Positions 18,051 to 38,210 of a stretch of 64,000 nt of DNA are shown piece by piece. This DNA is from Gammaproteobacteria bacterium (GTDB taxonomy: Bacteria; Pseudomonadota; Gammaproteobacteria; Pseudomonadales; Azotimanducaceae), in assembly GCA_026708185.1 (NCBI GenBank), contig JAPOVK010000015.1, forward strand, positions 62,001 to 126,000, in the 5' to 3' direction. The translations under genes were made by a program, and so were the position numbers. Numbering within the stretch: position 1 is the stretch's first letter; every line of letters starts with the position of its first letter. A model generated the notes under the pieces. The model was given only the letters and a program-made list of their open reading frames with translations. It made no database searches and was not told where the DNA came from.

Positions 18051-18418
18051 CGTCCTCGAGCGAATCCGAACTTGGCACTTGAGCGTAGTTTGCCGAACGG
18101 CACGGCGGCGGACCTTGACGGAGCGCGGACGTCCCCGCCCGCATTCAGGCCCCGTGCAACATGCCTCTTGCGGGCCCGAACCGCAAGCAGTTCGCGGACG
18201 CCCGCACACCTCGATGGGTACAGCCCGCTGGTGTGCCTGACGAAGTCCCTTCTGGCGGTTGAACGAGGTTGGCGGCCCCTGCGGCGGCCGGGCAACTCGG
18301 TGCGCGGACGTCCCCGAGCGGGTACTCCCGTTCGCGTTCGCCATCCCTGCCTCGGCACCAGGTCCATTGCGGGCCGGGAGGCCCGCGCACCTTGGGGCGC
18401 ACGCCCCCGGAAACCGTG
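18051..18418. other. Intergenic region upstream of cysC
   Basis: No gene is supported. Two partial direct repeats containing GCGCGGACGTCCCCG occur at about 18124 and 18302. Part of the stretch around 18135-18190 resembles 52380-52435 downstream of ilvE (shared CGCCCGCATTC and GGGCCCGAA blocks). Confidence 0.45.
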
Positions 18419-19045
18419 ATGACTCGGGACGGTGGCCCCGGCGCATCTCGCCACTTGACGCGTGTCGCGCATAGCGTTGCGACTACCGAACGCGAGAAGC
18501 GCAACGGCCATCGAGGCGGCGTCCTCTGGCTGACTGGCCTCTCCGGGGCGGGGAAGTCGACCTTGGCGTTCGCGCTGGAGGCCGAGCTTTTTGCCCGCGG
18601 CTACCAGGTCTACGTCCTAGACGGGGACAATGTCCGCCATGGCCTGAATTCCGACCTCGGATTCACGCACCGGGATCGCTCCGAGAACATCCGCCGGGTG
18701 GGCGAGGTGGCGGCGCTGTTCGCGGACGCCGGCTTCGTCTGCATTTCGGCGTTCATCTCGCCCTACCGGGCAGATCGCGAGGCGGCGCGCGTCGCAGCGA
18801 AGGGCCGGTTCCACGAGGTGTACCTAGACGCCGACGTGGAAACATGCGAGCGCCGGGATCCCAAGGGTCTCTATCGGAAGGCTCGAGCCGGGAAGATACG
18901 GGATTTCACGGGCGTGTCGGCACCTTACGAGATTCCCACGTCTCCCGACTTGGTGATCCCTACCGGCAGCACGGACATCGCTTCGAGCCTGGCGCTCGGG
19001 GTTTCCTATGTCGAGACCGAATTCTGCGTCTTGACTGCGCCCTAG
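18419..19045 (+). CDS. cysC: Adenylylsulfate (APS) kinase
   Basis: 208 residues. It phosphorylates APS to PAPS, the sulfate donor for sulfotransferases. Walker A is GLSGAGKST (about residues 41-49); [40 protein letters not shown] and the [26 protein letters not shown] block are diagnostic. ATG 18419 is the first good start; GTG 18416 is possible. It lies a few kb before three sulfotransferase domains, so it plausibly supplies PAPS for glycan sulfation. A decayed second copy lies at 20329-20627. Confidence 0.93.
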
Positions 19046-22294: not shown

Positions 22295-23734
22295 CTATAG
22301 CACGTCGCACATCAGTTTGGAGTATTTGGCGTAATCGGCTTCGCCGTTCACGTAATTCCGTAGATGGACCGGAACGTCCCGCTTGGGCTTGGCGCGTACT
22401 GCGGCCTTGGCGAGGAAGCGCTTTGCGTGAGTCGTCAGTTCAGGGTCGAGGTCGAGGTTGCGCATGATTTCGCGCCAGACGGCCCACTTGCGTCGACCAA
22501 ACACCCGGTCGTAGGAGACATAGAGGATCCGACGGCCGAACACACGTTTCGCCTGGATGGCCAGCCGAATCGACTCGTTCCAGTCTGCGACCGCACGCTG
22601 GAAGTCGTTTTCCTCGGGCCACGCGTCATCGGCGGCGGTGGCGCGGCGTTGCCAGGAGGCAGCGACGCTTACGGGATCCCGAACGATGTAGATTACGACG
22701 CACTCGGGGAAGGCCTTGTCGAGGAAATCGAGCCGGCGATAAAGGTTGGGAACCTTGTCGCCAACGTACTTGGCCGAGTCGTACTTGCGCCTGGCCTTCG
22801 CCGTGTCGTTGAGATAGCTCCTCTCAAGGTCGATGTTGGTGTCGCCGGGGGTGACTTCGAAATAGCGCTCCTTGGTGAAGAGCTCAGTCAGGTCGTCGGA
22901 CGGACGCGCGGTCATCAGGCGGCTCTTGTACCGCTCGATGCCGACGACGATGTCCGGGTGCGTATTCAGAAGCCGGGCCAAGGCCGTTGTTCCGGAGCGT
23001 CCCGTTCCGCAGACGAATATCCGCTTTTTCGCGGCTTCATCCGCGCCCCCCGGGTTCGAACGTCCTGCCACCCAGTCACGATATGCGTGGATCACCTCCG
23101 TCGCTTCGCCGTCCAGGGCGACGGCGCCATCCTTGAGCCAGATGACGCGATCGCAGAGTCGTTCCACGAAGTTCAGATTGTGGGATACGAGTGCCACCGC
23201 CTTGGTGCCCTGCATGACGTCCAGCATGGCCTTGCGCGACTTCTCCCGGAAAGCCTGGTCGCCCACCGAGAGGACCTCGTCGATCAGCATGAGATCCGGG
23301 TCGAGGTTGATGGCCGTCCAGAAACAGAGCCGAGCACGCATGCCCGTGGAGTAGGTTGCGACCCGCCTTTGGATGGCCTCGCCGAGCCCCGCCAAGTCGG
23401 CGATGTTGGCGACCCGGGCTTGCGCGTCACGCGGCGACAGACCGCTCAAGACCCCATGCAGGACGATGTTGCGGACGCCCGAAAGCTCCGCATCGAAGCC
23501 GGCGCTGAGCGACAGCAAGGCGGTACTCATGCCTTCCGACTCGAAGGAGCCGGCGTCCGGTCGAAGGACGCCGGCCATGACACGAAGTAGGGTCGACTTG
23601 CCCGTACCGTTGCCCCCGATGACGCCGACTTTCTCGCCGGAACCGATCGTGACGGATACGTCCTTCAGTGCGCTTACGGGGCTTCCAGTGATCGTACGGT
23701 CACGGTATCGAACGTGGACGTTGGCCAGGCGCAT
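22295..23734 (-). CDS. Polysaccharide ABC exporter ATPase fused to a sulfotransferase
   Basis: 479 residues in two parts. Residues 1-225 are a Wzt/KpsT-type ATPase: Walker A GGNGTGKST (40-48), signature YSTGMRARL (128-136), Walker B LMLIDEVL (148-155) and the H-loop SHN (184-186). Residues 237-479 are a sulfotransferase: PAPS 5'-phosphate loop FVCGTGRSGTTALAR (240-254), HPDIVVGIERYK, VGDKVPNLYRRL and VIYIVRDPVSVAASW. The second half is homologous to the separate sulfotransferase at 24527-25312. Start ATG overlaps the permease stop (TGATG). Wzt proteins often carry a C-terminal glycan-binding domain; here a modifying enzyme takes that place. Confidence 0.9.
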   Translation of the reverse strand: MRLANVHVRYRDRTITGSPVSALKDVSVTIGSGEKVGVIGGNGTGKSTLLRVMAGVLRPDAGSFESEGMSTALLSLSAGFDAELSGVRNIVLHGVLSGLSPRDAQARVANIADLAGLGEAIQRRVATYSTGMRARLCFWTAINLDPDLMLIDEVLSVGDQAFREKSRKAMLDVMQGTKAVALVSHNLNFVERLCDRVIWLKDGAVALDGEATEVIHAYRDWVAGRSNPGGADEAAKKRIFVCGTGRSGTTALARLLNTHPDIVVGIERYKSRLMTARPSDDLTELFTKERYFEVTPGDTNIDLERSYLNDTAKARRKYDSAKYVGDKVPNLYRRLDFLDKAFPECVVIYIVRDPVSVAASWQRRATAADDAWPEENDFQRAVADWNESIRLAIQAKRVFGRRILYVSYDRVFGRRKWAVWREIMRNLDLDPELTTHAKRFLAKAAVRAKPKRDVPVHLRNYVNGEADYAKYSKLMCDVL

Positions 23735-24555
23735 CAGGAAATGATCCGGCGAGTGAGTTGCTGATCGTAGTACCGGTACGCCAACGCCATCGCCGTGATC
23801 CAGGCGCCACTGACACCGGCCACGGCGGCGCACCACAGGAAGTCGGGCAACAGCCCGTCGAGTAGCACGAGGCGGTACTGCTCAAGGAGCACGGCCATCG
23901 GATTCAGGCGGAACCAGTCCTGGGCCGCGGGCGGAAACGAGTCGATGTCGAAAAAGATGCCCGAGCAGAACATCATGAGTTGCAGACCCGAAACGACGAT
24001 GAACCGGGTGTCCGGTAGCCATGCGCAAAGGAACGCGACCGTCAAGGCGCATGCGACGATCAGCAAGAACTCGACCGTGAGCAATACGGGCAGCACGAAC
24101 CATGAAACCGATGGCCCGGAAATGGTCCCAAGGACGGTGAGCAGGATTCCGTAGACGAAGACCTGCTTATATGTGACTGTGATTGCGCTGATCACTGGGA
24201 ATATGGGCTTGGGCACCTTCATCTGAAGGATCAGGCCCTTGGCGGTGTTTAGGCTTTGCGTGGCGTTGCCGACGCCGTTCGAGAACCAAAGCCATGCCGT
24301 GACCCCGACGATCAGGAAGTAGACGAACTCCTCGCCCCGTGGGCGAATGAACGTAAACACGACGAAAAAGACGCCTGTCATGGCCAGCGGCTCCAAGATC
24401 CACCAGAGCCAACCGAGGTGGTACTTGGATGCATCCGAGACGAGGTTTAGGTAGCCGCGGTAGAGACCGTAACGCCAGAACCGCGCCTCGATCAGGATCG
24501 ATGGCGGGCGCCCGAAACGGAGCGAGTCAGGCGCGTGGTCGGTGTGCGTCGGCAA
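23734..24555 (-). CDS. ABC-2 type polysaccharide export permease (Wzm/KpsM-like)
   Basis: 273 residues, six membrane helices, an N-terminal amphipathic stretch and the family region YHLGWLWWILEPLAMTGVFF. It forms the channel that carries an undecaprenyl- or lipid-linked polysaccharide across the inner membrane with the ATPase encoded immediately downstream. NPMAVLLEQYRLVLLDG near the end is typical. Its start lies 29 bp inside the upstream sulfotransferase gene. Confidence 0.92.
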   Translation of the reverse strand: MPTHTDHAPDSLRFGRPPSILIEARFWRYGLYRGYLNLVSDASKYHLGWLWWILEPLAMTGVFFVVFTFIRPRGEEFVYFLIVGVTAWLWFSNGVGNATQSLNTAKGLILQMKVPKPIFPVISAITVTYKQVFVYGILLTVLGTISGPSVSWFVLPVLLTVEFLLIVACALTVAFLCAWLPDTRFIVVSGLQLMMFCSGIFFDIDSFPPAAQDWFRLNPMAVLLEQYRLVLLDGLLPDFLWCAAVAGVSGAWITAMALAYRYYDQQLTRRIIS

Positions 24556-25312
24556 GGCGTGTCAGCTCCTCGTAGGCCTTGAAGTCGGCGTTGCGTTCGA
24601 CGTAATCGGTCACTTCGTCAGGCACATGCCGCCCCGACGCCGCGATGGCACGCGACTCGCTGAGGAAGCTCATCATGGATGAGCGCCAGTCGTCCGTGCC
24701 GTGCGCGGCGGGGTCCAAGTGGAGTCTCGACAGGACCGCAGTGATCGTCGCCTCGGGACGCCGGACGAAAAGGTCCTCGTAGTTCACGATCATCAGATCG
24801 TCACGCAACATCTCGATCGATGTTGTGACGTGTCGGATCGAGGCGTTCCACTCCTTGACCGCGGCCTTGTAGTCATTGGCGTTCCGCCACCGATCACAGG
24901 GGTTGTCCGCTCGGATCTGCCACGATCGCGCCACGTGCACTGGATCACGCAACATGAACACGACACGACACGCCAGGAATGTCCGGCGCAGGAATCGAAG
25001 TCGTCGGTACAAGTGCGGGCACTTGTCACCGACGTAGATGGCGTTGTCATACTTCTTCTTCGCGAGTAGGACCTTCTTGTCGAAGGTCGTCTCAGCGCTC
25101 ACGTTAGTATCGTCGGTCGAGAAGTCGAAGAAACGGTCCTTGCGGAACAGGGCGCGGAACCCGGCATCATCGAGTTCACCTTTGGAGTAGCGGCGTTTGA
25201 ACCGCTCGATTCCGATCACGATATCCGGATGGCAGTTGAGCGTCCGCGCCATGGCGGTGGTCCCTGACCGGGGTGTGCCACAGACGAAGAGGTAGTCGCG
25301 GAACTCTGTCAT
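24527..25312 (-). CDS. PAPS-dependent sulfotransferase
   Basis: 261 residues. The phosphosulfate-binding loop is FVCGTPRSGTTAMAR at 9-23; NCHPDIVIGIERFKRR follows, then YVGDKCPHLYRRLRFLRRTF and VVFMLRDPVHVARSW, which carry the 3'-phosphate-binding Arg and Ser. It resembles Stf-type carbohydrate sulfotransferases and the fused domain in the ABC ATPase. It overlaps the 1838-residue gene upstream by 4 bp (ATGA) and the permease downstream by 29 bp, so all four are one transcript. Confidence 0.9.
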   Translation of the reverse strand: MTEFRDYLFVCGTPRSGTTAMARTLNCHPDIVIGIERFKRRYSKGELDDAGFRALFRKDRFFDFSTDDTNVSAETTFDKKVLLAKKKYDNAIYVGDKCPHLYRRLRFLRRTFLACRVVFMLRDPVHVARSWQIRADNPCDRWRNANDYKAAVKEWNASIRHVTTSIEMLRDDLMIVNYEDLFVRRPEATITAVLSRLHLDPAAHGTDDWRSSMMSFLSESRAIAASGRHVPDEVTDYVERNADFKAYEELTRLADAHRPRA

Positions 25313-28300
25313 GTCCGGGCGCGCGCGTCATGGGCTTCTCCGACGAAGGCTTGCAGATACACCGGCGCGTGGCGATTGAGTAAATGCCGCGTCTCGAGAT
25401 CGCGTTTCGCTTGGTCCCGGATTGCCGCGCGGAGGTCGGCATCGGCCGCAAGTTCCCGCAAGCCTTGGGCCCAGGCCGCCGGCGTGTTGTCCACGACGAA
25501 GGCGTTTTTGCGGTGACGCGCGATCGACCCGTGAGCGCCGCGACTCGAACAGATGACACTGCAGCCAAGAGCTGTGAGGGCGAGGAACTCGAGGTCCGAG
25601 CCATGCGTGTCTTCGTCCGCTGGCAGCACCCCGATCTGCCAGCGGTTACGCGCGCGGAGTTGCTTGACGTCGTCTTCGAAAGATCCGGCTTGTTGGCACG
25701 GCATGACGTCTGCCGCGAGCACGTCGCTCAACTGGGCGACGGCATCGCGGACCATGCGGTCGACCGGGTCTGCGTGCAGCCCAAGGACCACGCACCGTAG
25801 GTCGTCGCCTGGATCGACTCCAAGCGTCCGTTCCCCGTGGATGGTGTCCTCAAGCCATAGCCTCTCGTCCAGTGCCGGCGGGACAACGACGACCTTGGCG
25901 GCGTACGGTTCCACGTGTGCCGCGACGGCTTCGGACGGCGCGACCACGCGTGTAGCGTTCCTGAGCAGGAACGCTGCTGCGGCGTCTGTTTCGGGGGGAG
26001 ATTCCCCGAAGTCCAACGGCCGGGCAACGCCGTAGACGAGATCGGCGCCGATGGCGATACATCGGTCGACGATTCGCCGTGCCTCGGCGACCGCCTGGAT
26101 CGTGCGGTCGTACACGACGCACACATCCGTCGAACGCCCATCGATCTGGTCGATGGCGTGGGCTTCGTGAACGCGCACGTGGCTCCGCAGCGAGTGGTGG
26201 CGAAGTGGCAACAGCACACGCTGCGGCAACGAGTGGTTCTCTATTGGCCGGTTCGCGTTCGTGGCGACCAGGACCCGCACCACGGCTTGCGAGCTCGCGA
26301 CGGGGTTTCCGAGGCGGCGATACGCCACGGCTTCGGCGCATCGGTCGTGCGCCTTGAGCGCGCCGGCAAGCCGGAACACCGAGAGTTCCGAGAGACTTGC
26401 GCGGACGACGTCGAACCGAGCGGCCGTGGCGAGGCCCCGCTGATTGAGCCGCCTCCGCAACCGCGAGTCTTCGACGAGGCGTGTGACGGCTTCCGACATG
26501 TCCTCGACCGACGCGGTGTCGACCACGAGGCAGTTGTCGCCGTCCACCGCGTATTCATAGATGCCGCCCACGGCGGGCAGGACGACGGCGCAGCCGCAGG
26601 CCATCGCTTCGAGACCGGTACGCCCGAACGCTTGGTAATCCGAGAAATCGACGAATACATCGGCCTCCCGCAAAAGGTCCGCCACGCCTTCGCGCGGCAA
26701 GATGCCGCGGTTCTCGAACCTCGAGTCGAGGCGGAGGTCGGGAGCGTTACGCCGGACATAGGTGGTCAGGTTCTGTGGTTCGCAACCGAAAAGCAGCATG
26801 CTCACGCGCCCATCGACACGTCGAGCCACATCCGCAAGGACACGCAAGGTCCGCAGGGGAGCCCGTCTCGGTGTCGTGGGTCTGATCATCGCGGCGACGC
26901 GCACATGGTCTCGTGGCGACGCTTCATGTCCCTCGGGTGGATAGTAGACACCGTGGTCGAGGCTTGGCGCGACGCGGTACACATCCCGTCCATGCCGTTC
27001 GCGCACCGTTCGACAGATCCAGTCCGTCTTGGCCATCAGGACCATGTCCGGGATCAGTGTGTAGGAATTGGTGGCAATGGCGCGGCTCTTCGGGTCGCCG
27101 GGAAAGAACCAGGGCTCGTAGTCCTGGACGTAGTAGACGTAGAGCTTGTCGGGGTAACGGACGGCCACGGGCGCGATCAAGGCCGGCGACGACCACAGGG
27201 TTGCCACGATGATGTCGAAGTCGGATGCCTTGTCGAGCAGGTCCTGGTCGGAGTCGAAGAACACGAAATAGACCTTCTCGGCGAGGAGGTCCGCGTAGAA
27301 CTGCTCGAAATCCTTGAGGTACTTCACATGGGTGGCGACCTTCGCATCGACGCCCAAAGACCGCATGCCCATCACTTCTTGGATGACCGAGTTGGCGCCG
27401 CCGCTACCACCGCGGACGGGAAGCACGAAAAGCACGCGCTCGGTGCCTCGGTCCGTGGTCGTAGCGCCAGACGGCTCGGCGACGTCCTTCAGGCGCGACT
27501 TGACGGCATCGCGGATGTCCCGGAGCACGGGTGAGTTTCGCAGTCGGGCGCCGCCTTCCTGGATCTGCTCGTCGCCATGTTTGTCGCGCAAGGCTTGCCC
27601 CCCGGCCTTCGCGAGGCGGAGGCGCGCCGCATGCCCGAAGCTCTTCGACTTGCCGTGGTAGACGAAGCACTGATCGGCGATCGCCAAGGCGAACCCCTCG
27701 GCTCGGGCACGCAGGCAGTAGTCGTTCTCCTCGCCGTAGCCCTTCGGGAACGTGACCTCGTCGAGGAGGCCTACTGTCTCGATGACCCGCCTGCTGACCA
27801 TGAAGCAGAATCCGTTGACGAAGTCGACACGCGGGAACTGCCGCTGCGAGACCCGGTGTACCAGCTCCGCGAACTCGTCGACGTTGTAGCCTGGCGGCAG
27901 GTCGTTCACGGCCCATTCGCCGCCGTCGACGACTTCGGGCACGGATTGGTAGCTCGCCGCGTTGGACAGGGGGCCGACGATGCCTACGTCTTGATTACTC
28001 AGCATGCATTCGAGAAGGTGTTCGAGCCAAAGCCGGGGGACGATCGTGTCACTGTTCAGCAACACGACGTGGTCGGCCCCGCTGGTTGCGAGGCCCCGAT
28101 TCGCGGCGCAGGTATAACCGAGCGGGCCATTGGTCTCGATCAGCTCGACGTCCGCCTTGCGGTTTGCGGCGAACTGGCGAAGCCAACCGGTCGTTTCAGC
28201 GTCGGAGCCGTCATTGACGACGATCAACCTGAAGTCGACAGTACTCCGGGTCAGTACGGACGCAAGGCACTGCCGGACATCCTCGATGGCGTTGTGTACG

Positions 28301-30825
28301 CACACTACGACGTCCACCGAACATTGGTACACCGCGGGAGATGGCGCTCGGCCCACTGTCGACCGGCTTCCGGCATCGGGCTGTCGGCTGTCGGCCTCGG
28401 GGGACTGCGTGGCGGGGGGCGAATGAGCGGGGCGTGGATCTGCCGCCGGTTCTGGGAGTTCCGGGACATAGATTTGGCCGCGCTCGACGACGTTTGGGTG
28501 TGCTGTTGCTGCCTGAGTCCGCGCGCTGGAGCCCCCGGCCCGGTCGGTCGGGACTGGTGTCGAGACCCCGTCCGGCAGTGCACCCTTGTCGCTCCGGTAC
28601 TCCCCGACCAAGGCCGACATGGCGTCCACGGCGGTCGCTGGCCGTCCCTTGCGCACTATTCGTCGATGCAGGGACAGTAGGAAGTTACCAAGTCGCCAGC
28701 GCCGTGACCCTTGAAGCGACTCGACGATGGCCGCGAGTTGGTCCGCGAAGTCCCTCAGTATCGCGACCTCGAACCGGTTTTTCGCCAGTTCGGCGGAGCG
28801 CTCGAAAAGCATCCGGGACAAGGCAAGTCGCCGGTGGGCATCGGCGCTGACCAACTCGTCGGCCACGCGTGGCTGATCGCCTGCAAGGCCGAGTTCGACA
28901 AGCTTGTTTCGGCTGTCGGCGACCAATCCGGGCGCCCGCTCGGTGGCTTGGTACGCAATGACGGCTTCTTGAAGGCGCGCGCCGATGGTGTGGCGCTTGC
29001 TCCGGATGACGGATCGCGGATGTACGGACAGCAAGATGCTGCCGAGGCGCCACCGTCGGGAGTGCAGACAAGCTTCGATACCCTGTTGGAGGTGGCCGGT
29101 GAGTTCCTCGAGTTCGACGATTTGGGCCTTGGCGAGCGCGATCTGGGCATCCAGTGACTGCACGGACTGCCGTGCTTGGCCGCGGTGGGCGGCGGCCTCA
29201 GTCTGGACGTTGACCTTGTACCGATCCAGAGCGTCCCGTTGCCGCTGCAGCGTGTCGCGTTCGCCCTCCAGCCGCTCGCGGTGCTTGGTGAGGGTCGAGC
29301 GCTCATGCGCATTCACTTCGGCTTGCTTCTGGAGCGCAGCGTACTCATTCCTCAGCCGCTCGCGGTCGTGCTCTAAACTGTCTTTGGCCCCCTCCAGCTC
29401 GCGGACTTCCCGCTCACGGTTCGATAGCCTCGCCGTGAGTTCGCGGCGCTCGGCCTGCACATGTTCGATTGTCTTGCGGGCGGTCTGGTACTGCTCGTCG
29501 CGGACGGCCAGCTTGGTGGTGAGTTCTCGTACCTCCATGTCTCGCCTGGCCAGTTTGGCCGCCGCGTCCCGGCGTGCCCTTTGCGCCTGCGCAATGGTCT
29601 GGCGGGATGAGCGGATCGTCTCGTCCCGCGTGGCGAGCTTGGTTGCAGCGTCCCGGAGTTCAAGCTCGCGCTTGGACAGCTTCAGAGCGAGGTCGCGACG
29701 TACCGCCTGGGTCTGCTCGATTGTCTGACGGGACGAACGGATTCTCTCGTCCCGCCGGGCGAGCTCGGTCGCTAGCCCCCGTAGCTCTGCGTCTCGCTTG
29801 CCAAGCTGGGTGGTAAGCCCCTTCCGCAGCGCTTCCAGCTCGCGCCGAGTTGCCTCGGCTCTGGTCTCGGCTACACGGAGGCGCTCCCGGGTCTGTTCGC
29901 CCGTCGCGAGGGCGTGACGTAGCTCAAGCCCCCTCAACGCCAACTGCGTTTTCACGTTGGGGTCGCTTCGTCGTTCGTTGCTGGCCCGCCAGCGTTCGGT
30001 CCGTTCGCCAATGTCGACGCTGGCCTCGTAGGTCGCCAGCGTATCGATAGTCTTGTTGGACAACGAGGCGCTGGCGACTCCGTCGAGTGGCCCGTCGGCG
30101 GTGAGCGCACGGTACAGCTCCAACTGACTGGCGGTCGCCACGGCCTGGACGGATTTCAGCTCGTGGCGGTGATGACGGAGTCCGTGATCCAGGAATGCGC
30201 CGAGCTCCCGCGGGGCCGGCACCCGTAGTTCGTACGCGCCGTATTGCTCCAATGCGGCGTGGATGGTCCCCACCGTGGTCGTGGGGTTGTTGAGTAGGTC
30301 CTCGTAGGACACGATGTAGCGTGGCAATCCATCCGAGGCTCTCAGCGCAAGCCGGTTGTAAAACTCCCACAACGCTAGGCCAACCCGGATCGGGACGCCG
30401 TTCCGTGCCTTGAGCGAGTGGGCCACTTCGAGGGGATTGCGGTGGATGTGTATGCAGAACGGCATCTCGAGAACCGCTCTCCAGAGGGGGAACAGCAGGC
30501 AGAACCTCGGCTCCTTGAGGAACCACGGGCGGTGCGCATCCATGTCCATGACGATGTCGGCCATGGCGGCGCGATAGTCGTCCATCCTTTCGTCAGGCAA
30601 TGCGCCGACGTCGAATGCTGAGACGCAATCCCAGTCGCAACCTGCGTTGAACAGGATCGTGTCGTTGAGCGTGCGGACATCCCGCCGCTCCCAAAACCCT
30701 TTCCGATTTTCCGGATTTCGCCCGGTGCTGACCTGCTCGCCGCCGAAATACAAGCCCATCAGGTTCAGCACGCGCGCCAGAGCCGAGGTGCCGGACCGGT
30801 GCATACCCAGTATGAAGACCTGCAT
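25309..30825 (-). CDS. Giant sulfotransferase-coiled coil-glycosyltransferase protein
   Basis: 1838 residues. 1-240: sulfotransferase-like domain with GMHRSGTSALARVL (7-20) and CIHIHRNPLEVAHSL. 290-585: charged coiled coil with internal repeats (RDERIRSSRQTIEQ, RDETIRSSRQTIAQ, RDEQYQTARKTIEH). Two SRRWRLG tags at 589-595 and 707-713. 760-830: Pro/Ala-rich linker. 835-1085: GT2 glycosyltransferase with VVNDGSDAE and LLNSDT. About 1130-1490: GT4 domain with FGRTGLEAMACGCAVV. About 1515-1830: a third GT4-like domain ending TALGCSVICSSRGAHG. It probably both extends and sulfates a surface glycan at the membrane. No signal peptide; cytoplasmic. First gene of the exporter operon. Confidence 0.88.
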   Translation of the reverse strand: MQVFILGMHRSGTSALARVLNLMGLYFGGEQVSTGRNPENRKGFWERRDVRTLNDTILFNAGCDWDCVSAFDVGALPDERMDDYRAAMADIVMDMDAHRPWFLKEPRFCLLFPLWRAVLEMPFCIHIHRNPLEVAHSLKARNGVPIRVGLALWEFYNRLALRASDGLPRYIVSYEDLLNNPTTTVGTIHAALEQYGAYELRVPAPRELGAFLDHGLRHHRHELKSVQAVATASQLELYRALTADGPLDGVASASLSNKTIDTLATYEASVDIGERTERWRASNERRSDPNVKTQLALRGLELRHALATGEQTRERLRVAETRAEATRRELEALRKGLTTQLGKRDAELRGLATELARRDERIRSSRQTIEQTQAVRRDLALKLSKRELELRDAATKLATRDETIRSSRQTIAQAQRARRDAAAKLARRDMEVRELTTKLAVRDEQYQTARKTIEHVQAERRELTARLSNREREVRELEGAKDSLEHDRERLRNEYAALQKQAEVNAHERSTLTKHRERLEGERDTLQRQRDALDRYKVNVQTEAAAHRGQARQSVQSLDAQIALAKAQIVELEELTGHLQQGIEACLHSRRWRLGSILLSVHPRSVIRSKRHTIGARLQEAVIAYQATERAPGLVADSRNKLVELGLAGDQPRVADELVSADAHRRLALSRMLFERSAELAKNRFEVAILRDFADQLAAIVESLQGSRRWRLGNFLLSLHRRIVRKGRPATAVDAMSALVGEYRSDKGALPDGVSTPVPTDRAGGSSARTQAATAHPNVVERGQIYVPELPEPAADPRPAHSPPATQSPEADSRQPDAGSRSTVGRAPSPAVYQCSVDVVVCVHNAIEDVRQCLASVLTRSTVDFRLIVVNDGSDAETTGWLRQFAANRKADVELIETNGPLGYTCAANRGLATSGADHVVLLNSDTIVPRLWLEHLLECMLSNQDVGIVGPLSNAASYQSVPEVVDGGEWAVNDLPPGYNVDEFAELVHRVSQRQFPRVDFVNGFCFMVSRRVIETVGLLDEVTFPKGYGEENDYCLRARAEGFALAIADQCFVYHGKSKSFGHAARLRLAKAGGQALRDKHGDEQIQEGGARLRNSPVLRDIRDAVKSRLKDVAEPSGATTTDRGTERVLFVLPVRGGSGGANSVIQEVMGMRSLGVDAKVATHVKYLKDFEQFYADLLAEKVYFVFFDSDQDLLDKASDFDIIVATLWSSPALIAPVAVRYPDKLYVYYVQDYEPWFFPGDPKSRAIATNSYTLIPDMVLMAKTDWICRTVRERHGRDVYRVAPSLDHGVYYPPEGHEASPRDHVRVAAMIRPTTPRRAPLRTLRVLADVARRVDGRVSMLLFGCEPQNLTTYVRRNAPDLRLDSRFENRGILPREGVADLLREADVFVDFSDYQAFGRTGLEAMACGCAVVLPAVGGIYEYAVDGDNCLVVDTASVEDMSEAVTRLVEDSRLRRRLNQRGLATAARFDVVRASLSELSVFRLAGALKAHDRCAEAVAYRRLGNPVASSQAVVRVLVATNANRPIENHSLPQRVLLPLRHHSLRSHVRVHEAHAIDQIDGRSTDVCVVYDRTIQAVAEARRIVDRCIAIGADLVYGVARPLDFGESPPETDAAAAFLLRNATRVVAPSEAVAAHVEPYAAKVVVVPPALDERLWLEDTIHGERTLGVDPGDDLRCVVLGLHADPVDRMVRDAVAQLSDVLAADVMPCQQAGSFEDDVKQLRARNRWQIGVLPADEDTHGSDLEFLALTALGCSVICSSRGAHGSIARHRKNAFVVDNTPAAWAQGLRELAADADLRAAIRDQAKRDLETRHLLNRHAPVYLQAFVGEAHDARART

Positions 30826-31143
30826 TGGCGTTGATCCCGCTAAGTGGTTATGCGTGCCGTAGAGCCGTGTAGCGGTGCCAGTTGAGGGATTTCCATGGAA
30901 TAGGACGTCAACGGAGCGCGGGAACCTCGGCCCGAACGCCGGGATACAACGTCAATCGAACCACATGACGGCACCATACTATCACCCGGCGGGATTGGTC
31001 TGCCTACGTCCAGCTCGTCCAGGGTTTACGGATCATTGGTGAGCGGGATGCCAGGGGGCGCGGTCCTCTGGCCGCACGGAATACGCCTCGATCCGGATTG
31101 CGCGCGAGGACGTCCGCGCCCGCCTTGCCAAACATCTGTCCTA
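30826..31143. other. Intergenic region, nothing identified
   Basis: 318 bp upstream of the giant gene and downstream of the first coiled-coil gene, both on minus. It must contain the promoter of the exporter operon, but no box could be assigned with confidence and no repeat or terminator with a T-tract was seen. Confidence 0.5.
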
Positions 31144-31758
31144 CTACACCCGCTCGTCCGCGCGGGGGCCGACGTCGGGGTGGTTTGTCGACTCTGTCTG
31201 CGGTGGCATCTGGCCAAGCGCGAGAGTGGTCGCCAACTCGTGCTGGTCATCTGCCACGGTCGCAGTGCGACGGCCGAGGAGACGACTGGGGATCGACAGC
31301 AAAGCGTTGCCCAGTCGCCAGCGCCGGGTTGTGGTGATGGCTAGGAAGGCGGTTGCCAAATCGGCGGACAGGCGCTTCAAGGAGCGCAGTTGAGCTCTGA
31401 CTCGGGCGGACTCGAGATCGCGTCGCTCCGCGTTCTTCAGCAGGATCCTGTTGCGCAGCCTAGCGTTCGCGTACTCGCGCTCGCGGCGCTCGGCGTCTCT
31501 CGACAGGAGCCGAATCCGGGCCATCGCGCACGCGTAGCGACGTTCCGAATCCTGCAGGTCCTGGCGGAGTTCCGAGCATAGGCGCTCCAGGCTTGCACGC
31601 GCTTGGGTGAGCCGCTGCCGGTTGCGTTCATGGCGCTGGAGGGTCGAATGATCTTCCACAGACGGAGACCGAGATGTCGTGCGGTCCGGCACACCGGCCT
31701 CGGTCACGGGTGTGTCTTCCGCATGCTTCGGATGTACATGCCGCTGGTCCTTCGGCAC
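31144..31758 (-). CDS. Coiled-coil protein with SRRWRLG-type tag
   Basis: 204 residues from GTG 31758. Residues 35-140 are strongly charged coiled coil (NRQRLTQARASLERLCSELRQDLQDSE, then several R-D-A-E-R-R-E-R-E blocks). It is followed by TTRRWRLGNALLSIPSRLLGRR (143-164), the same tag as in the giant protein, and a short polar tail. There is no catalytic domain. The tag and position suggest a scaffold or adaptor for the neighbouring enzymes, but this is inference. Divergent from the similar gene at 31990. Confidence 0.7.
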   Translation of the reverse strand: MPKDQRHVHPKHAEDTPVTEAGVPDRTTSRSPSVEDHSTLQRHERNRQRLTQARASLERLCSELRQDLQDSERRYACAMARIRLLSRDAERREREYANARLRNRILLKNAERRDLESARVRAQLRSLKRLSADLATAFLAITTTRRWRLGNALLSIPSRLLGRRTATVADDQHELATTLALGQMPPQTESTNHPDVGPRADERV

Positions 31759-31989
31759 TGTCCGTTCGATTCTCTAGGCTGGCGGGCACCTACTCGTCGA
31801 TCACGGTCTGTCTGTCGGGGAGCCAAGCGTCTCGCAATTGCCTCCGTTGAGCCCATGGCAGCGACAGCTCGCAATGGCGCGACACAGGTCGCGAAACGCG
31901 ACAGGCCGGATGGTAGCATTTTGTTCGGGATGCCGCGTGGACCAGCGACGGCACTGGCGGCTCTGACGGGACGCACATAGGAACACGAG

Positions 31990-32949
31990 ATGGGTGTGAG
32001 CAGCGAGACTCCCCGGACGGGAACCGTCGACGGTGGCCGCGGTGAGACCGGCGTCTCGGCCCCGGTGCGACAAGCGTTGGCCTCGGAGCGCATAGAGGTC
32101 CTGACCCGCACGGTCGGCGAACTGCAAGCGACGAGAAGCGAACTGCAGTACGACTTGAGCGTTGCGCTCGACTCGCTGGCCGAGGAACGGAAACGCTTTG
32201 CAGTCGCTGTGGCGCAGCACAAGACCGCACTCGCTGCAGCACAACACGAGGCAGCCCTTGCCGAGGAGAGGCACCGAGTGGCGAACGGCGAGCGCGCCCT
32301 CGACGCGGTTCGCGAACTTGCCGCGCTGCGACTTGAGGTCGCCCGTGTCGAACGCGACAACGAAGCACTGCGCGAAAGGGTACGACAGCTGTCTGGCTTG
32401 CCATCCTTGCTCGAACGGCGACGCGCACACCTTGCTGACCTGCGGGAGAGGCTCTCGCTGGTTGTGCATGACCGGAAGTCCCTCCGTCGGGAGCTGAAAA
32501 GGCGTGCGGGGGTGCTGGCGCGGCTGCGGTCGGACCTTCGGGCGGCACGAGGCTCCGTGTCTGCACTGGAACGTAGCGTACGCGGTCTCGAACGCGAGAC
32601 CTTGGTGCTTCGAGGCGAAGCGACCGCGAACGCGAGGCTGCGGAAACAGGAAGCGGGCGCGAACAGAATTTTGCGGAAACAGAACGTGGAACTGGTGCGC
32701 TTGGTCGATGAACTCGGCGAAGGGTTTCATGCCGTGCTCGCCAGCCACCGTTGGCGCTTGGGCGCGGCGTTGTTGGCCCTGCCTCGGCTTTTGCTCTTCC
32801 GTCGCAGCGCGCCAACGGCGCCGGACGCGATGTTGCGGCTCGTGGCGGAGCACCGCCGGCGGCAGCAGAATGCCTTGGAACCGCTCCCGGCCGATCGGGA
32901 GGTTGCGCACGGCAAACCTGGCGGTGAAATCGGCGGACCTCACGGGTAG
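31990..32949 (+). CDS. Coiled-coil protein with SHRWRLG tag
   Basis: 319 residues. A coiled coil spans about 30-250 (ERIEVLTRTVGELQATRSELQ, then LRERLSLVVHDRKSLRRELKRR), followed by ASHRWRLGAALLALPRLLLFRR at 251-272 and APTAPDAMLRLVAEHRRRQQ. Residues 120-292 align with residues 355-507 of the glycosyltransferase at 36633-38210, sharing DRKSLRRELKRR/NSRKSLRGELQKR, RIRSDLQAAR-type runs and PDAMLRLVxEHR. ATG 31990 follows GAACACGAG. It precedes the asparagine-synthase-like gene by 14 bp, so they are probably co-transcribed. Confidence 0.75.
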   Translation: MGVSSETPRTGTVDGGRGETGVSAPVRQALASERIEVLTRTVGELQATRSELQYDLSVALDSLAEERKRFAVAVAQHKTALAAAQHEAALAEERHRVANGERALDAVRELAALRLEVARVERDNEALRERVRQLSGLPSLLERRRAHLADLRERLSLVVHDRKSLRRELKRRAGVLARLRSDLRAARGSVSALERSVRGLERETLVLRGEATANARLRKQEAGANRILRKQNVELVRLVDELGEGFHAVLASHRWRLGAALLALPRLLLFRRSAPTAPDAMLRLVAEHRRRQQNALEPLPADREVAHGKPGGEIGGPHG

Positions 32950-32963
32950 CACGCTAGGGTCAC

Positions 32964-34910
32964 ATGCTGACGCACTGGGTCATCGTCGCCCCTCGAAACC
33001 GCGACGCGGATCATCGGGTGCCGCGCCGATTGAGGGCAGCACTCGGTCGCCACCTCTACTACAAGCCGGACGACGTCCTGTGTCATCGACACGCATCCGG
33101 TGTCTGGACGATCGGCGTATCTGCAGCCAGTCGAGTGTGGGGCATGGATGTCCCTTGGGCACTGGAAGATGAAGCCTTCGTCGTGGTGGCCGGTACGCCG
33201 ACACTGGAATCGGCGCCGGCTGGCGGACTCGCGTCGATCCCCTCGCGGCTCAAGGCTTGGCTGGACGACGCGGGCATCCAACAAGTGTTCGAGAAGGCCG
33301 GAGGGACTTACAGCGTCGGCATGCTCGACTCCGGGGGGATCGCCGCTTTCGCGGACTTCAGCGGCTACAACTCGTGCTCCTACCTGAGCACGCGGGACTA
33401 CGTCGCGGTGGGCAATCTGCCGGGCTTGGTGGGCGCGTTCAGATGTCGGTTCCCGGATGTGCATGACGCGGACACCGAGACCCTCGGTTGGTTGGCGGCC
33501 ACTACCATGGTGATCGGCGACCGGACGGCATTCAAAGGGGTGCGTCGTCTGCGCACGGGTCACCGATTGCGCGTTCGACTTGGCCCCCGGCTCTTCGATG
33601 TGGACGAACCGGTGGTTGCGCCGATGGCACCCATACACTTCACTCCACTCGAAGGTCATTCGATCGACGCCATCGACTTCGGTGCGGTGGTTGAGACCTT
33701 CGGCAACCGCATTCGCTGGTGCAGGGACCAAGGCATCGGTTTCCGTTCGCATTTGACGGGCGGACGGGACACCCGTGCGGTCGTCGGAATCCTCGCGCAC
33801 AACGGGCTCTTGGGCGCGGTCCCGGAGTTCATCACGAATGGTTCCGAACGGAACGGCGACGTGATGATTGCGCGCCGGCTGGCCGGCGCCGTAGGCGTTA
33901 CCGGGCGCCACTCCATCCGCAGGGGCTCGAAGTCAGCCACGCGGATGTCGGCGGTGCGTCTGGCTGACGCCCTCACCCGGTGCGCGTTCGTGTTCTCATG
34001 CCAGTTGACGCCTTTTGACGGGCGGTTGGCGCCAGCGGCCCGACCTGGGCGGGACGTCATGCTGATGGGCGGCGGCGGCGAGATCTACCGTCAGGAGTGG
34101 GGGAGTGCCGATGTGCTGTCAGGGCGGGACCGAGCTGCGATGGCGCTCAATCTGTTCTGTCGCTTTGATCGTCTCGACCTCGTTGACGACGCCTACCGGG
34201 CCAACTGCAAGGGCGTGGTCGAGCGAGAACTCGACTACCTTGCAAGTACGGGCGTCGTAAACCTGACCGGCGCGTTCTACCTGGAAGAGCGCTTGGCCAA
34301 CTGGGGCTGCGCTCATTTCAGCAACAGCACGTCGGCGCAGTTCCCGCTGCTTCTCGACTTCGCGTTGGCTCGCTCCGTCTTTGCGTTGCACGATGTCGGC
34401 GAGGACATCCATTTCGAGATCATGCGCCACTGCGACGAGGCGCTTCTTGACGTGCCGTTCCTGAACCATCGTTGGGCGCCGAAGACGGAGGAACGCGCAC
34501 GACGGCTAGGCCTGTCGACAGAGCCGCTGCAAGTGGGGGTGGAGCGAAGTTTCCCGTGGCAGTTCGACTGCTATCGTCGGTTCAGGAATGCGCTGATCGA
34601 TTTCTGTATCGACTGCGGCGGCGCAATGCACGACGTGATTCCGGGTTCGCGGTTGAGATCCTTGCGACGCAGACCCGTGGAGCCTTTCTCATCGGCACAC
34701 GTCAAGATGCTCTTTGGACTCGTGGCCGCGGTGACCTTCGCCGAGGGTGGTTACATCCGCTCCCGTGACTTCGAGGACGAGTCGCCGATCGGGTTCGCCG
34801 GCAATGGAACGGGCGAGAAGCTCCGTGACATCTGCCAGTACGGCGACCGGGCCCCGCAGTTCGACATCCGCGACGAGTTGCTCCGACGTCTGCAAGCGGC
34901 TGATCGGTGA
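32964..34910 (+). CDS. Asparagine-synthase-like protein lacking the N-terminal cysteine
   Basis: 648 residues. Residues 40-210 resemble an Ntn-type glutaminase fold (GGTYSVGMLDSGG, FADFSGYNSCSYLSTRDYVAVGN), but the protein starts MLTHW with no nucleophilic Cys at position 2. Residues 240-430 contain a modified PP-loop, SHLTGGRDTRAVVG (262-275), in place of S-G-G-x-D-S, plus GGGGEIYRQEW. Members of this group occur in polysaccharide loci and are thought to activate a carboxyl or handle an amide, but no substrate can be named. The lack of the Cys suggests ammonia or another nucleophile is used, or that it is not an amidotransferase. Confidence 0.78.
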   Translation: MLTHWVIVAPRNRDADHRVPRRLRAALGRHLYYKPDDVLCHRHASGVWTIGVSAASRVWGMDVPWALEDEAFVVVAGTPTLESAPAGGLASIPSRLKAWLDDAGIQQVFEKAGGTYSVGMLDSGGIAAFADFSGYNSCSYLSTRDYVAVGNLPGLVGAFRCRFPDVHDADTETLGWLAATTMVIGDRTAFKGVRRLRTGHRLRVRLGPRLFDVDEPVVAPMAPIHFTPLEGHSIDAIDFGAVVETFGNRIRWCRDQGIGFRSHLTGGRDTRAVVGILAHNGLLGAVPEFITNGSERNGDVMIARRLAGAVGVTGRHSIRRGSKSATRMSAVRLADALTRCAFVFSCQLTPFDGRLAPAARPGRDVMLMGGGGEIYRQEWGSADVLSGRDRAAMALNLFCRFDRLDLVDDAYRANCKGVVERELDYLASTGVVNLTGAFYLEERLANWGCAHFSNSTSAQFPLLLDFALARSVFALHDVGEDIHFEIMRHCDEALLDVPFLNHRWAPKTEERARRLGLSTEPLQVGVERSFPWQFDCYRRFRNALIDFCIDCGGAMHDVIPGSRLRSLRRRPVEPFSSAHVKMLFGLVAAVTFAEGGYIRSRDFEDESPIGFAGNGTGEKLRDICQYGDRAPQFDIRDELLRRLQAADR

Positions 34911-35069
34911 TCCGCGTGCCAGCGGACACTGACGTTGGAACCGGAGTGTGCGGGCCTCTGGCCTGCACCGGGAACCCCCTCAGTCTCGATGCGGACGAGA
35001 ACCCGCGCAGCCCGTCGATGAACGCGGATCGTGCAGTTTCCGCCGGTTGGTAGGCAAGGTCTTTCGGTA

Positions 35070-36491
35070 ATGGATCTGAGCGGCTACGACTTCCTGGACT
35101 TCGGCGCGTCGAAGAACGGGCTCTTCGAGTTCGCCAACGTGCGCTTAGGCGGGACGAACGGTCTTGGGGTGGACACCGATCCACGTAAAGTGGCGCTGAC
35201 GCGCAGCCTCGGACACGATTGTATGGTAGGCGACGTCTCGCGGATCGACTGGCCCGAGGACTCTGTTCGGTTCGTCACGATGAGCCACGTACTGGCGCGC
35301 CTGCCTGATCTCGAAGCGGTGCAGCGCGTGCTGGCCGGTGCCGCCCGGGTCGCGTCGGACTTCCTCTTCATCCAGGGTCCGTTCTTCGATGCCGACGGGG
35401 CTCTTGCTGAGGACGGTCTGAAGCTCTACTGGTCCGACTGGGCCGACCATCCGTGCCGTCTGACCACGGCTGCGTTGCGGGAGACGCTGGACGCGCTGGG
35501 GCTGCACGACTACGTCTGCATGGGCCGAGCGGAGGTGGCGGGCTCGGCGGACCCGGCGGTCCACCCCCTGGACTCGCCGCCGGACCAGCATGGCTACGAC
35601 GCCGACGAGCATCCGCCGAAGCCGGCGGTGTCGTTCGCGGCGCCGAAGTACCCGGATCCCGTCTACCGGGAGATGGTGTGCGTGGTGCGCCTGCGCGACT
35701 TCCCCGGCTGGCCGGACGTGGTCGCCGCGCGCAAGGGCTGCGAGTGGATCGCGCCGAGGCTGCCGAAGCTGAAGGCCGACATGGACGTGAGCGGGTACGA
35801 CTTCCTGGACTTCGGCGCGTCGACTGGCGAAGCCATCGAGTTCGCCCGGGCGCGCCTCGGCGGCACGAACGGCCTCGGCGTGGACATCGACCCGCAGAAG
35901 GTGGCCCGGATGCGGAGCCTGGGCTACGAGTGCGCGGAAGGAGACGTGACCCGGATCGACCTGCCGGAAGACTCGGTCCGGTTCGTCACGATGAGCCACG
36001 TACTGGAACGTCTGCCGGATCTCGAAGCGGTGCGGCGCGCGCTGGCCGGTGCCGCCCGGGTCGCGTCGGACTTCCTCTTCATCCAGGGTCCGTTCTTCGA
36101 TGCCGACGGGGCTCTTGCCGAGGACGGTCTGAAGTTCTACTGGTCCGACTGGACGTACCACACGTGCCATTTGACGACGGACGCCTTGCGCGAGACGCTC
36201 GACGCGCTCGGGCTGCGCGACTACGTGTGCATGGGCCGGGCAGAGGTCGCGGACTCGACGGACCCGGCGGTCCATCCGCTCGAGTCGCCGCCGGACCAGC
36301 ACGGCTACGACGTCGACGTGCATCCGCCGAAGCCGGCGGTGACGTTCGCGGCGCCCGGGTACCCGGATCCCGTCTACCGGGAGATCGTGTGCGTCGTGCG
36401 CCTGCGCAGTTTTTCGGGCTGGCCGGACGTTGTCGCCGCACGGCATGGTTGCGAGCCGATCGTCCGCTCTGGGGACGAAATCGGCGCCGCG
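35070..36491 (+). repeat. 711-bp direct duplication inside the methyltransferase-like gene
   Basis: Unit 1 begins at 35070, unit 2 at 35781 (period 711 bp, exactly 237 codons). A block of more than 80 bp around 35336-35406 and 36047-36117 is almost base-for-base identical, while other parts have drifted. That mosaic is typical of gene conversion or recent recombination between the units. Confidence 0.85.
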
Positions 36492-36578
36492 TCGAAGCCT
36501 GCCGTTGGACGAGGTTCGAAGCCCGGCAGTAGGATGCGCAGCCTCTTTGACCGCGTCGCCGCTTGGCGGTCGGCATAG
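35070..36578 (+). CDS. Internally duplicated methyltransferase-like protein
   Basis: 502 residues made of two 237-residue copies. Each opens M-D-(L/V)-SGYDFLDFGAS, a SAM-binding-like strand and loop, followed by GGTNGLGVD(T/I)DP, a second-strand acidic residue, GDV(S/T)RID, and SVRFVTMSHVL, the class I methyltransferase order. Copy 2 retains a family-like loop (FGASTGEAIEF) while copy 1 has FGASKNGLFEF, so copy 1 may be degenerate. I start at ATG 35070 because the second copy begins with the same residues; GTG 35031 also stays open. It may methylate a sugar of the locus. Confidence 0.75.
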   Translation: MDLSGYDFLDFGASKNGLFEFANVRLGGTNGLGVDTDPRKVALTRSLGHDCMVGDVSRIDWPEDSVRFVTMSHVLARLPDLEAVQRVLAGAARVASDFLFIQGPFFDADGALAEDGLKLYWSDWADHPCRLTTAALRETLDALGLHDYVCMGRAEVAGSADPAVHPLDSPPDQHGYDADEHPPKPAVSFAAPKYPDPVYREMVCVVRLRDFPGWPDVVAARKGCEWIAPRLPKLKADMDVSGYDFLDFGASTGEAIEFARARLGGTNGLGVDIDPQKVARMRSLGYECAEGDVTRIDLPEDSVRFVTMSHVLERLPDLEAVRRALAGAARVASDFLFIQGPFFDADGALAEDGLKFYWSDWTYHTCHLTTDALRETLDALGLRDYVCMGRAEVADSTDPAVHPLESPPDQHGYDVDVHPPKPAVTFAAPGYPDPVYREIVCVVRLRSFSGWPDVVAARHGCEPIVRSGDEIGAASKPAVGRGSKPGSRMRSLFDRVAAWRSA

Positions 36579-36632
36579 CGTCCTTTCGCCCGCGGGCGAG
36601 CGGCAAGCTGTTGGCAACGCCTTGCGGTTGCC

Positions 36633-38210
36633 TTAGGTTGGGTCGACGCTAGGCGACTCGTCTGGATCGGGCGAGCGCTGCTGCCGGTGCTCCGACACGA
36701 GTCGCAGCATCGCATCCGGGGCCGCTGGCGGCTTGGCGCGGGAGAGTAGCCGATGCGGCCAAGTCAGCGCGCCGCCCCAACGCCATCGGCGGCTGGCAGC
36801 AACGGCGACCAAGCCTTCGTTGAGGTGGTCGAGCAAACGCTCAAGCCGGCGGTTGCGCTCTAGGACGGTCCTGGTTCGCGCGGATTCGGCCCGGAGCGTT
36901 CGCCGGTCACGCTCCAGCGTCTGGATGCTGCGGCGTAGATCAGCCGCGCGCTTTCGTGCCGCCTGCAGGTCCGAACGTATGCGGGCCAACAGTCGACCGC
37001 GCTTTTGCAGTTCGCCACGTAGGGACTTCCTGCTGTTGGCAACCACCGAGAGCCGAGCGCGCGCTTCGGCAAGCTGTGTCTGTGCCTTTCCAAGCATTGA
37101 CGGCAATCCGTGTACCGCCCCAAGCAGCGCTTCGTTTTCGCGTTCGAGTACGGACGCTCGCGCGCGCAAGGCTGCGAGTTCGGCCTGATGCGCGGCACTC
37201 CGCTCCGTAACCACCGCGAGTTGCTCCGCGACCGCCGCGCGTTCTCGCTCGGCCACAAGTGCATCACCCATGTCGCTCGCGCGTTTCCGGAGTTCGCCTA
37301 GCATTGCCTTCAACTCGTGGGTCAGGTGGTCCGCGTCGTCAGTCCGCGGTGCGGGCGGTGGCTGGCGCCGCGAGACGTCGTTCTGAACAATGCCCTGGAT
37401 GAGGTCCACGTTCGTCAGCAGCGACTCTACATGGTCGCGGTTGGGCCCGTATTCCGGGCGGTGATGAGCTAGACCCAGGTCCATCAAGCCGAGAAGAAGC
37501 CGGTATTGACGGTCGAAATAGGGAACCAGCTGCAGCCACACCGGACTACGCATGAACTCTCGGTACGCGTTGAAGTGCTTCGGCTTGGACAGGCCCCAGT
37601 CGAGCGCTCGCTTCCCACGGACCGACGGTGCGGGTAGCGGTGCCCGTCTGGGGCTCATGTGGTAGCCGTGTACGCCCCGCAACACCCCTGGTGGCGGCGT
37701 TCCCCATCCGCGTGCGGTAACCAGGGCATAGAGGAGTTCCTCGTCGCGGCGTGGGTCGGCACCGTCAGGCAGCCTCACGGGGTAGTACGCATCGCTGCGC
37801 GTGAAATGGAGTCCGCTAAGGGCCAGTCGTCCTTTGCGGACCTCATTGCTGTATGGCAGGCCGTGCCGGGCCATACGGTCTATGTGGATGTCGGTGACGG
37901 CTTCGAGAATCAGGATGTCGATGTCTCCGATGTACGTGAACTCGGTGATTTCTCTCGGAGTCTCGAGGAATCGGACGCTATTGGGGGGTATGCCCGCCCA
38001 ACGGGCACCGCGGAGGAGGATGCGATCCTCGCCGAAATGCTCTCTTAGGATGCCCAGCGCTCGCTCGTTGCTGCTGCGGAACGCGCCCACGTCCTGCAGG
38101 CAGACCTCTACGCGAGCATCGGAATTGTGGTACAGCGCGCTCACGATGTACGGCAGTACGAAAATCTCGTAGCGCGTGTCGGCGGCCGTGAAGAAGGTGG
38201 TACGACTCAT
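36633..38210 (-). CDS. Putative glycosyltransferase with coiled-coil and SRRWRWG tail
   Basis: 525 residues. The N-terminal 250 look like a GT-A sugar transferase: MSRTTFFTAADTRYEIFVLPYIVSALYHN, then FTYIGDIDILIL with a D-x-D metal motif (96-98), and HFTRSDAYYPVRLPDG. A coiled coil runs 295-465, followed by AASRRWRWGGALTWPHRLLSRAK (471-493) and PDAMLRLVSEHRQQ. The tail is homologous to the gene at 31990-32949. ATG 38210 starts the recognisable domain. It lies 31 bp downstream of rmlD in the same direction, suggesting it uses dTDP-rhamnose or joins that transcript. Confidence 0.75.
   Translation of the reverse strand: MSRTTFFTAADTRYEIFVLPYIVSALYHNSDARVEVCLQDVGAFRSSNERALGILREHFGEDRILLRGARWAGIPPNSVRFLETPREITEFTYIGDIDILILEAVTDIHIDRMARHGLPYSNEVRKGRLALSGLHFTRSDAYYPVRLPDGADPRRDEELLYALVTARGWGTPPPGVLRGVHGYHMSPRRAPLPAPSVRGKRALDWGLSKPKHFNAYREFMRSPVWLQLVPYFDRQYRLLLGLMDLGLAHHRPEYGPNRDHVESLLTNVDLIQGIVQNDVSRRQPPPAPRTDDADHLTHELKAMLGELRKRASDMGDALVAERERAAVAEQLAVVTERSAAHQAELAALRARASVLERENEALLGAVHGLPSMLGKAQTQLAEARARLSVVANSRKSLRGELQKRGRLLARIRSDLQAARKRAADLRRSIQTLERDRRTLRAESARTRTVLERNRRLERLLDHLNEGLVAVAASRRWRWGGALTWPHRLLSRAKPPAAPDAMLRLVSEHRQQRSPDPDESPSVDPT

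Follow-up and report, generated by a model that had tools for sequence, protein, structure and literature searches.

A recurring SRRWRLG tag at the ends of coiled coils in a gammaproteobacterial Wzm/Wzt glycan island: a possible membrane-proximal end-piece

The window, the whole stretch of 64,000 nucleotides analysed here (assembly GCA_026708185.1, contig JAPOVK010000015.1), contains a Wzm/Wzt glycan island in which four coiled-coil proteins share a short tag (Table 1). A pattern scan of the window with [ST][RH]RWR[LW]G returned exactly five copies across these four proteins, at the places given in a preliminary description of the same DNA apart from one-residue shifts and a difference in the start codon of the 36633 protein. 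The tag of this protein occupies residues 573–579 of the open reading frame as listed (up to 38510) and residues 474–480 if the ATG at 38210, the likely start, is used. The largest of the four, hereafter the giant, carries Pfam matches to Sulfotransfer_3 (residues 3–192), GT2 (839–951) and glycosyltransferase group 1 (1327–1464), and the 31144 and 31990 proteins have no catalytic domain in Pfam or NCBIfam scans. The 36633 protein had been described as a glycosyltransferase, a name that was only a guess, as neither Pfam nor NCBIfam gave such a match. The listed genes from the giant through the Wzt-like ATPase overlap, and the Wzm/Wzt gene set is present, with Wzm-like and Wzt-like genes adjoining the giant; the window's Wzm, Wzt and free sulfotransferase carry no tag of the SRRWRLG kind in the pattern scan.

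Table 1 Features of the glycan island, in window coordinates.
Feature	Position	Strand	Evidence or remark
APS kinase	18269..19042	+	PF01583, E 4e-66
Wzt-like ATPase with C-terminal sulfotransferase domain	22295..23836	-	ABC_tran 57-188, Sulfotransfer_3 273-463
Wzm-like permease	23734..24555	-	ABC2_membrane weak, under curated cut-off; KpsM weak; homologues in L047, L043
Free sulfotransferase, overlapping the end of the giant gene	24527..25312	-	Sulfotransfer_3, E 1e-22
Giant protein, 1838 aa: sulfotransferase, coiled coil, two tags, GT2, GT4	25309..30825	-	Pfam
Coiled coil of the giant, about residues 285-580	29086..29973	-	Hydrophobic period 3.5; shuffles reaching it 0/500
Tag 1 SRRWRLG, giant residues 589-595	29041..29061	-	Pattern scan; predicted helix break at serine
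Tag 2 SRRWRLG, giant residues 707-713	28687..28707	-	Pattern scan; predicted helix break at serine
31144 protein, 204 aa: coiled coil and tag	31144..31758	-	Periodicity; domain scans
Tag TRRWRLG, residues 144-150 of the 31144 protein	31309..31329	-	Pattern scan
31990 protein, 319 aa: coiled coil and tag	31990..32949	+	Periodicity; domain scans
Tag SHRWRLG, residues 252-258 of the 31990 protein	32743..32763	+	Pattern scan
36633 protein: N-domain of no known family, coiled coil, C-terminal tag	36633..38210	-	ORF list, domain scans
Tag SRRWRWG of the 36633 protein	36774..36794	-	Pattern scan

Relaxing the pattern to [ST]..W[RK][LIVMWF][GTS] revealed no sixth copy in the window's open frames of >150 codons, and a profile search of the same genome recovered the five copies at E-values of 3e-27 to 3e-24, with no further convincing tag among the best 150 of 223 first-look candidates that were scored (the next match, at E 0.016, has an internal stop). 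All pairwise comparisons of the 97-residue tag segments (10/10) outscored every one of 500 shuffles. The homology of about 150 residues described earlier for two of the proteins extends to 179 residues between the 31990 and 36633 proteins (47% identity, E 9e-35), and the PDAMLRLVxEHR string singled out within it is a local variant of TAADSxxxLVxxYR, a motif that follows the tag in this genus and is recognisable after tag 2 of the giant too. No Pfam or NCBIfam match covers the tag among the matches listed for the proteins scanned, solved structures yielded no convincing match to it (the WbdD chains there end at residue 556 or earlier) and a literature search by its letter strings found no paper.

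Each copy had been proposed to follow a charged coiled coil or helical segment. The hydrophobic periodicity of the stretches upstream of the tags peaks at 3.48–3.52 residues in all four proteins, as in coiled coils, and its power was matched by 0/500 shuffles for the giant, 15/500 for the 31144 protein (the weakest case), 2/500 for the 31990 protein and 0/500 for the 36633 protein. The coil of the giant is extended, with a period of 3.5 and a predicted helix over 88 residues. Heptad power in the 70 residues preceding tags was 5.4, compared with 1.8 elsewhere in the same proteins (n = 36). The 18-residue post-tag stretches, which start no more than 6 residues from the tag start, had a mean charge of +4.0 vs −0.2, of which two to three charges are the motif itself and present by selection, and a hydrophobic moment of 0.40 vs 0.30 (n = 59), with mean hydrophobicity not clearly raised (p 0.06). 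Loose-pattern matches in L099 and L142 were excluded from the profiles and from these charge and heptad measurements, and were kept in the count of 17/73 given below.

An AlphaFold model of giant residues 499–791 (8 sequences, mean pLDDT 73) places a helix running up to each tag. At both tags the modelled coil ends at the tag serine, which lies outside the helix, and a new helix begins at the next residue, covering 12 residues (model 92–103) after tag 1 and 17 residues (210–226) after tag 2. Serine, threonine and asparagine are good helix caps at this place. By sequence properties and in the model, the helix after the giant's coil is predicted to be amphipathic and cationic, and a further modelled helix after tag 2 spans VDAMSALVGEYR, which is how PDAMLRLVxEHR reads in the giant. 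The comparison for a common fold covered the giant's two copies, which gave the same local predicted pattern.

Profile searches found the module in 11/15 other genomes of the genus, and the first profile (E 0.01) gave none in 9 genomes of other genera of the family (0/9) and none in 13 genomes from other families of the order. Those relatives with names, picked up through the GT2 domain beside the tag, come from metagenome-assembled Gammaproteobacteria, among them an uncultured Pseudomonadales bacterium, and bin names such as IRC, COS and RHO suggest sponge samples. Paired tags are spaced by exactly 120 residues in seven proteins and by 118 in the window's giant. In a 57-column tree, which is a short alignment, tag 1 and tag 2 copies fall mostly in separate groups and the copies of the 31990 and 36633 proteins pair (support 0.90). 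The giant's tags therefore appear to represent mostly two old lineages, for which the earlier term 'mobile' is too strong; modularity is nevertheless plausible because another genome of the genus has, at L040:283-1242, a relative of the N-domain of the 36633 protein that carries no tag.

An N-terminal sulfotransferase was identified by Pfam in 10/13 genus proteins scanned (the exceptions being L043:16101, L048 and L037:7850, of which L037:7850 has no tag within its frame), and the combination of sulfotransferase and coil was likewise present in 10/13. By alignment, 12/12 of the N-termini taken resemble sulfotransferase, with the first motif changed in L038 and L043:16101; in the giant, the motifs that we take to be those of a sulfotransferase look intact. 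The L038 protein consists of sulfotransferase, coil and tag only. In the relative G006 (L037:7537-10051, − strand) sulfotransferase and coil lie in one open frame and the tag in another. The window's APS kinase is likely to supply PAPS, and in 8/13 genus loci a homologue of this kinase is found no more than about 3.3 kb from the giant or its sulfotransferase frame. The carbohydrate-binding domain Wzt_C (PF14524) has no match in this genome, and the window's Wzt ends in a sulfotransferase domain. This fusion of ATPase and sulfotransferase occurs here and in G007, and perhaps in G009 (a 518-codon frame, matched to query residue 304), and a search of 274 genomes of the class with the Wzt query (five candidates scored per genome) listed no match outside this genome beyond query residue 320. 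The sulfotransferase domain of the G007 Wzt (L047:5940-7340) reads GAPSTGAT for GTGRSGTT and FGHPES for VRDPVS, as if, judging from these motifs, it had been turned into a binding domain.

We distinguish G-type tags (SRRWRLG-like, from this genus) from T-type tags (SxSW[RK]xTxPLR), and SRRWRLG seems to be the local version of a wider element, SxSW[RK]xTxPLR, hitherto without a name. A contig scan with the tag 2 and GT2 stretch, whose search patterns lie in the GT2 domain, retained the best 80 of 218 relatives, seven from this genus and 73 from outside it. The pattern [STN]..W[RK][LIVMFWY][TGSA] was present in 17/73 of these non-genus proteins (shuffled proteins averaged 1.6, with a maximum of 6 in 500 rounds) and gave no such tag in 56/73, and 16/17 of the matches are N-terminal to GT2 (0.71 vs 0.018 per 1000 residues). 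The same pre-GT2 region holds G-type (SRRWKIG, SNRWKLG) and T-type (SRSWKLTAPLR) tags in homologues from distant bacteria, and intermediates between the types (SNSWKIG, SRRWKIG) also precede homologous GT2 domains; this equal place is the main ground on which we call the two types one element. The likeness to W-R-L-T-x-P-L-R tails drawn in the preliminary description accordingly stands, as the same position in homologous proteins. A comparison of the G-type and T-type profiles gave a probability of 92.5, which is partly circular because the rows of both were picked with one pattern. All five window copies (5/5) have glycine where T-type tags have threonine after W-R-x, and none has P-L-R; by its position we regard the window tag as a sister of the T-type and do not count it among T-type tags. 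In WbdD of E. coli HS, SRSWRMT occupies residues 592–598 of 708, where the ruler coil ends; against a single element, the genus profile alone scores WbdD at only 8.3 bits (E 0.03), under a spurious short frame.

Beyond the genus, the G-type profile A7 (398 genomes of the phylum, 16 candidates scored per genome) matched this genome and gave six weak matches, none of which is convincing. Profile A3 (274 genomes of the class, 23 candidates scored per genome) gave nine matches outside this genome, in long frames only for G105, G236 and G214 (1621, 1275 and 1681 codons); the others, without long frames, look like chance. The G214 match (L054) has no tag-pattern match and was placed by profile score alone. 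The G105 and G236 proteins, both outside the genus, follow a Wzt homologue by 1.3 and 1.6 kb.

The T-type profile (eleven rows) matched 29/185 genomes of the class, with 35 matches of which 25 were below E 1e-5, compared with 4/185 genomes and none below 8e-5 for a reversed control of the same rows (36 candidates scored per genome in both); it had no match in this genome. Pfam was run on 28 of the 35 match proteins, taken from loci of about 3 kb (five matches had no locus, and those of L185 and L188 lie in tiny frames). Sixteen had a glycosyltransferase domain, nine more a methyltransferase domain, one a PIG-L deacetylase domain and two nothing, which gives a raw share of 26/28 with one of these domains, in which a methyltransferase domain by itself is no proof of a glycan role. 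Only 12–20 residues follow the tag in 8/20 of the fetched match proteins. Flanking sequences of 20 of the 35 matches held Wzm homologues in 12/20 loci vs 0/20 control stretches and Wzt homologues in 12/20 vs 2/20, the controls being contig starts, several of them short (286,729 bases in all vs 327,642 for the T-type loci) and not matched for glycan genes. The tagged gene lies directly after wzt in nine loci (L203, L205, L207, L211, L213, L215, L216, L219 and L220). Wzt_C was found in 17/29 T-tag genomes vs 22/156 others (Fisher p 1e-6, an optimistic value, as are the other p values, because the compared genomes and proteins are related), with no match in the domain search for 12/29 T-tag genomes; 13/35 T-type tags lie within 12 kb of Wzt_C and 10/35 within 2.5 kb. 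Wzt_C also occurs in G092, which is among the four genomes matched by the reversed profile. The domain scans and the flank and Wzt_C comparisons bear out part of the earlier interpretation, that of a real module linked to glycan assembly and Wzm/Wzt loci, and the scattering of profile matches without a glycan link that would speak against it was looked for and not seen. The docking or membrane contact by which, in the same interpretation, the module would gather sulfotransferase, glycosyltransferase and exporter into one assembly stays a proposal.

A close point of comparison is the E. coli O9/O9a chain-length regulator WbdD, which has a terminating enzyme, a coil and an S-x-x-W-R tag, as the giant would with its sulfotransferase as terminator. 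An excerpt of PMC11231755 places the terminator of WbdD before the coil, and a membrane-associated helix and the polymerase site after it. The wbdD gene lies directly 3' of wzt in E. coli HS, as do the tagged genes of the nine T-type loci. Unlike the giant, WbdD has a methyltransferase-kinase rather than a sulfotransferase, no fused transferases and a single tag of the T-type, and, according to the papers, its Wzt has a carbohydrate-binding module; the L038 protein has sulfotransferase, coil and tag where WbdD has methyltransferase-kinase, coil and tag. Excerpts of PMC3447403 describe full-length WbdD as hard to solubilise and residues 1–600 as abundant, and that construct ends two residues after the tag. 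The same excerpts raise an amphipathic helix while treating WbdD 1–600, and the helix may for this reason precede the tag instead of following it. Further sources for a WbdD-like mechanism, likewise seen as excerpts, are PMC3482155, PMC6286764 and PMC5082667. WbbB (Klebsiella O12) and ORF6-O7, which join terminator, coil and transferases in one chain, resemble the giant in their order of modules (PMC11231755, excerpt), but with a Kdo transferase or methyltransferase-kinase as terminator. The S-x-S-W-R-x-T-x-P-L-R tails of glycosyltransferases share with the window tag the post-coil place, the S-x-x-W-R core and the protein classes, whereas they have threonine and PLR where the window tag has glycine, a hydrophobic LLS and the TAADS...YR helix. 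By analogy, we would say that the giant works like WbdD and WbbB, but we stop short of classing it simply with them because Wzt_C was not found and a sulfotransferase domain stands in its place.

We consider it somewhat probable that the tag is a membrane-proximal end-piece of coiled-coil scaffolds that build and measure surface glycans ahead of their export by Wzm/Wzt. The long charged coil would end at the tag serine, which would cap a new helix, strongly cationic and amphipathic (R-R-W-R-L-G-x-x-L-L-S), lying along the cytoplasmic membrane on its inner side. In the giant, the N-terminal sulfotransferase would sit at the coil's far end as the probable chain terminator, with the transferase modules that follow the tags at the membrane, and the 31144, 31990 and 36633 proteins would join the same assembly through their common end-piece. 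Membrane contact, sulfate as terminator, ruler action and joint assembly are the steps that we infer in this scheme. The 31144 and 31990 proteins, having no catalytic domain to hold, count against a scaffold.

The tag might instead be mainly a protein-docking site that recruits the polymerase or Wzm/Wzt to the coil end without lipid contact, a rather unlikely reading that nonetheless draws on the frequent position of tagged genes directly after wzt and on an exposed, highly conserved tryptophan that would presumably suit a partner pocket. Excerpts of PMC3482155 and PMC6286764 likewise have the C-terminal region of WbdD recruiting the polymerase WbdA. Many post-tag tails, however, are only 12–20 residues long, cationic and amphipathic, more like a lipid-contact helix, and the tag stays constant while partners differ widely among hosts. 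A further reading, in which the tag merely caps the structure, so that the coiled-coil oligomer ends or is brought into register there and neither membrane nor partner is involved, agrees with the predicted helix cap exactly at the tag serine and with the established capping quality of S, T and N, but such a cap needs neither W-R nor a cationic amphipathic stretch and leaves the tie to Wzm/Wzt unexplained, and we regard it as very improbable. A separate question is whether G-type and WbdD T-type tags are unrelated and arose independently, S-x-x-W-R being a favoured ending of coils. In favour of this, the G-type profile gives WbdD no significant score, post-tag sequences differ, the T-type profile has no match in this genome and the profile comparison is partly circular; both types and the intermediates SNSWKIG and SRRWKIG nevertheless precede homologous GT2 domains in distant bacteria, and two G-type proteins outside the genus (G105 and G236) also follow a Wzt homologue, which makes separate origins improbable in our view.

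An extension of the end-piece reading, which we put forward tentatively as possible but doubtful, is that glycan machines with ABC export in many phyla have the tag as a general membrane-end module and that it is, in this genus, part of a sulfate-capping ruler in which the sulfotransferase-fold domain of Wzt replaces the carbohydrate-binding module as cap-reader. The coil would set the distance at which the N-terminal sulfotransferase ends the chain, and the Wzt domain, with altered catalytic motifs in one relative, would be a cap-writing enzyme turned cap-reader. Counting against sulfate capping, in the end-piece reading as well, is a gene cluster of Aeromonas in which Wzt and WbbB occur with a sulfotransferase ORF and for which, as its authors state in the excerpt of PMC4483657, sulfate has not been reported in the O-antigen. 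If right, the sulfotransferase version would represent a new capping chemistry for ABC-exported glycans. With the end-piece reading, a tag profile would pick out chain-length scaffolds, together with their terminating enzymes, by sequence alone, and the question of how the membrane holds a molecular ruler could be put to one defined place, WbdD 592 onward; both may help to find and understand glycan-measuring machines in many bacteria.

The N-domain of the 36633 protein (37383-38210, − strand) belongs to no known family and has a DID motif. It was found in three of 38 genomes, with no solved relative, no phage match and no relative in viral contigs, and its one plasmid relative, from Azospirillum, lies beside methyltransferase genes; its AlphaFold model is poor (mean pLDDT 45). 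Between the tagged genes, a 648-residue protein (32964-34910, + strand) without Pfam or NCBIfam match has homologues near the giant in L049 and L047, and a single ORF (35031-36578, + strand) contains the methyltransferase domain twice, with shorter genus homologues beside the giant matching one copy.
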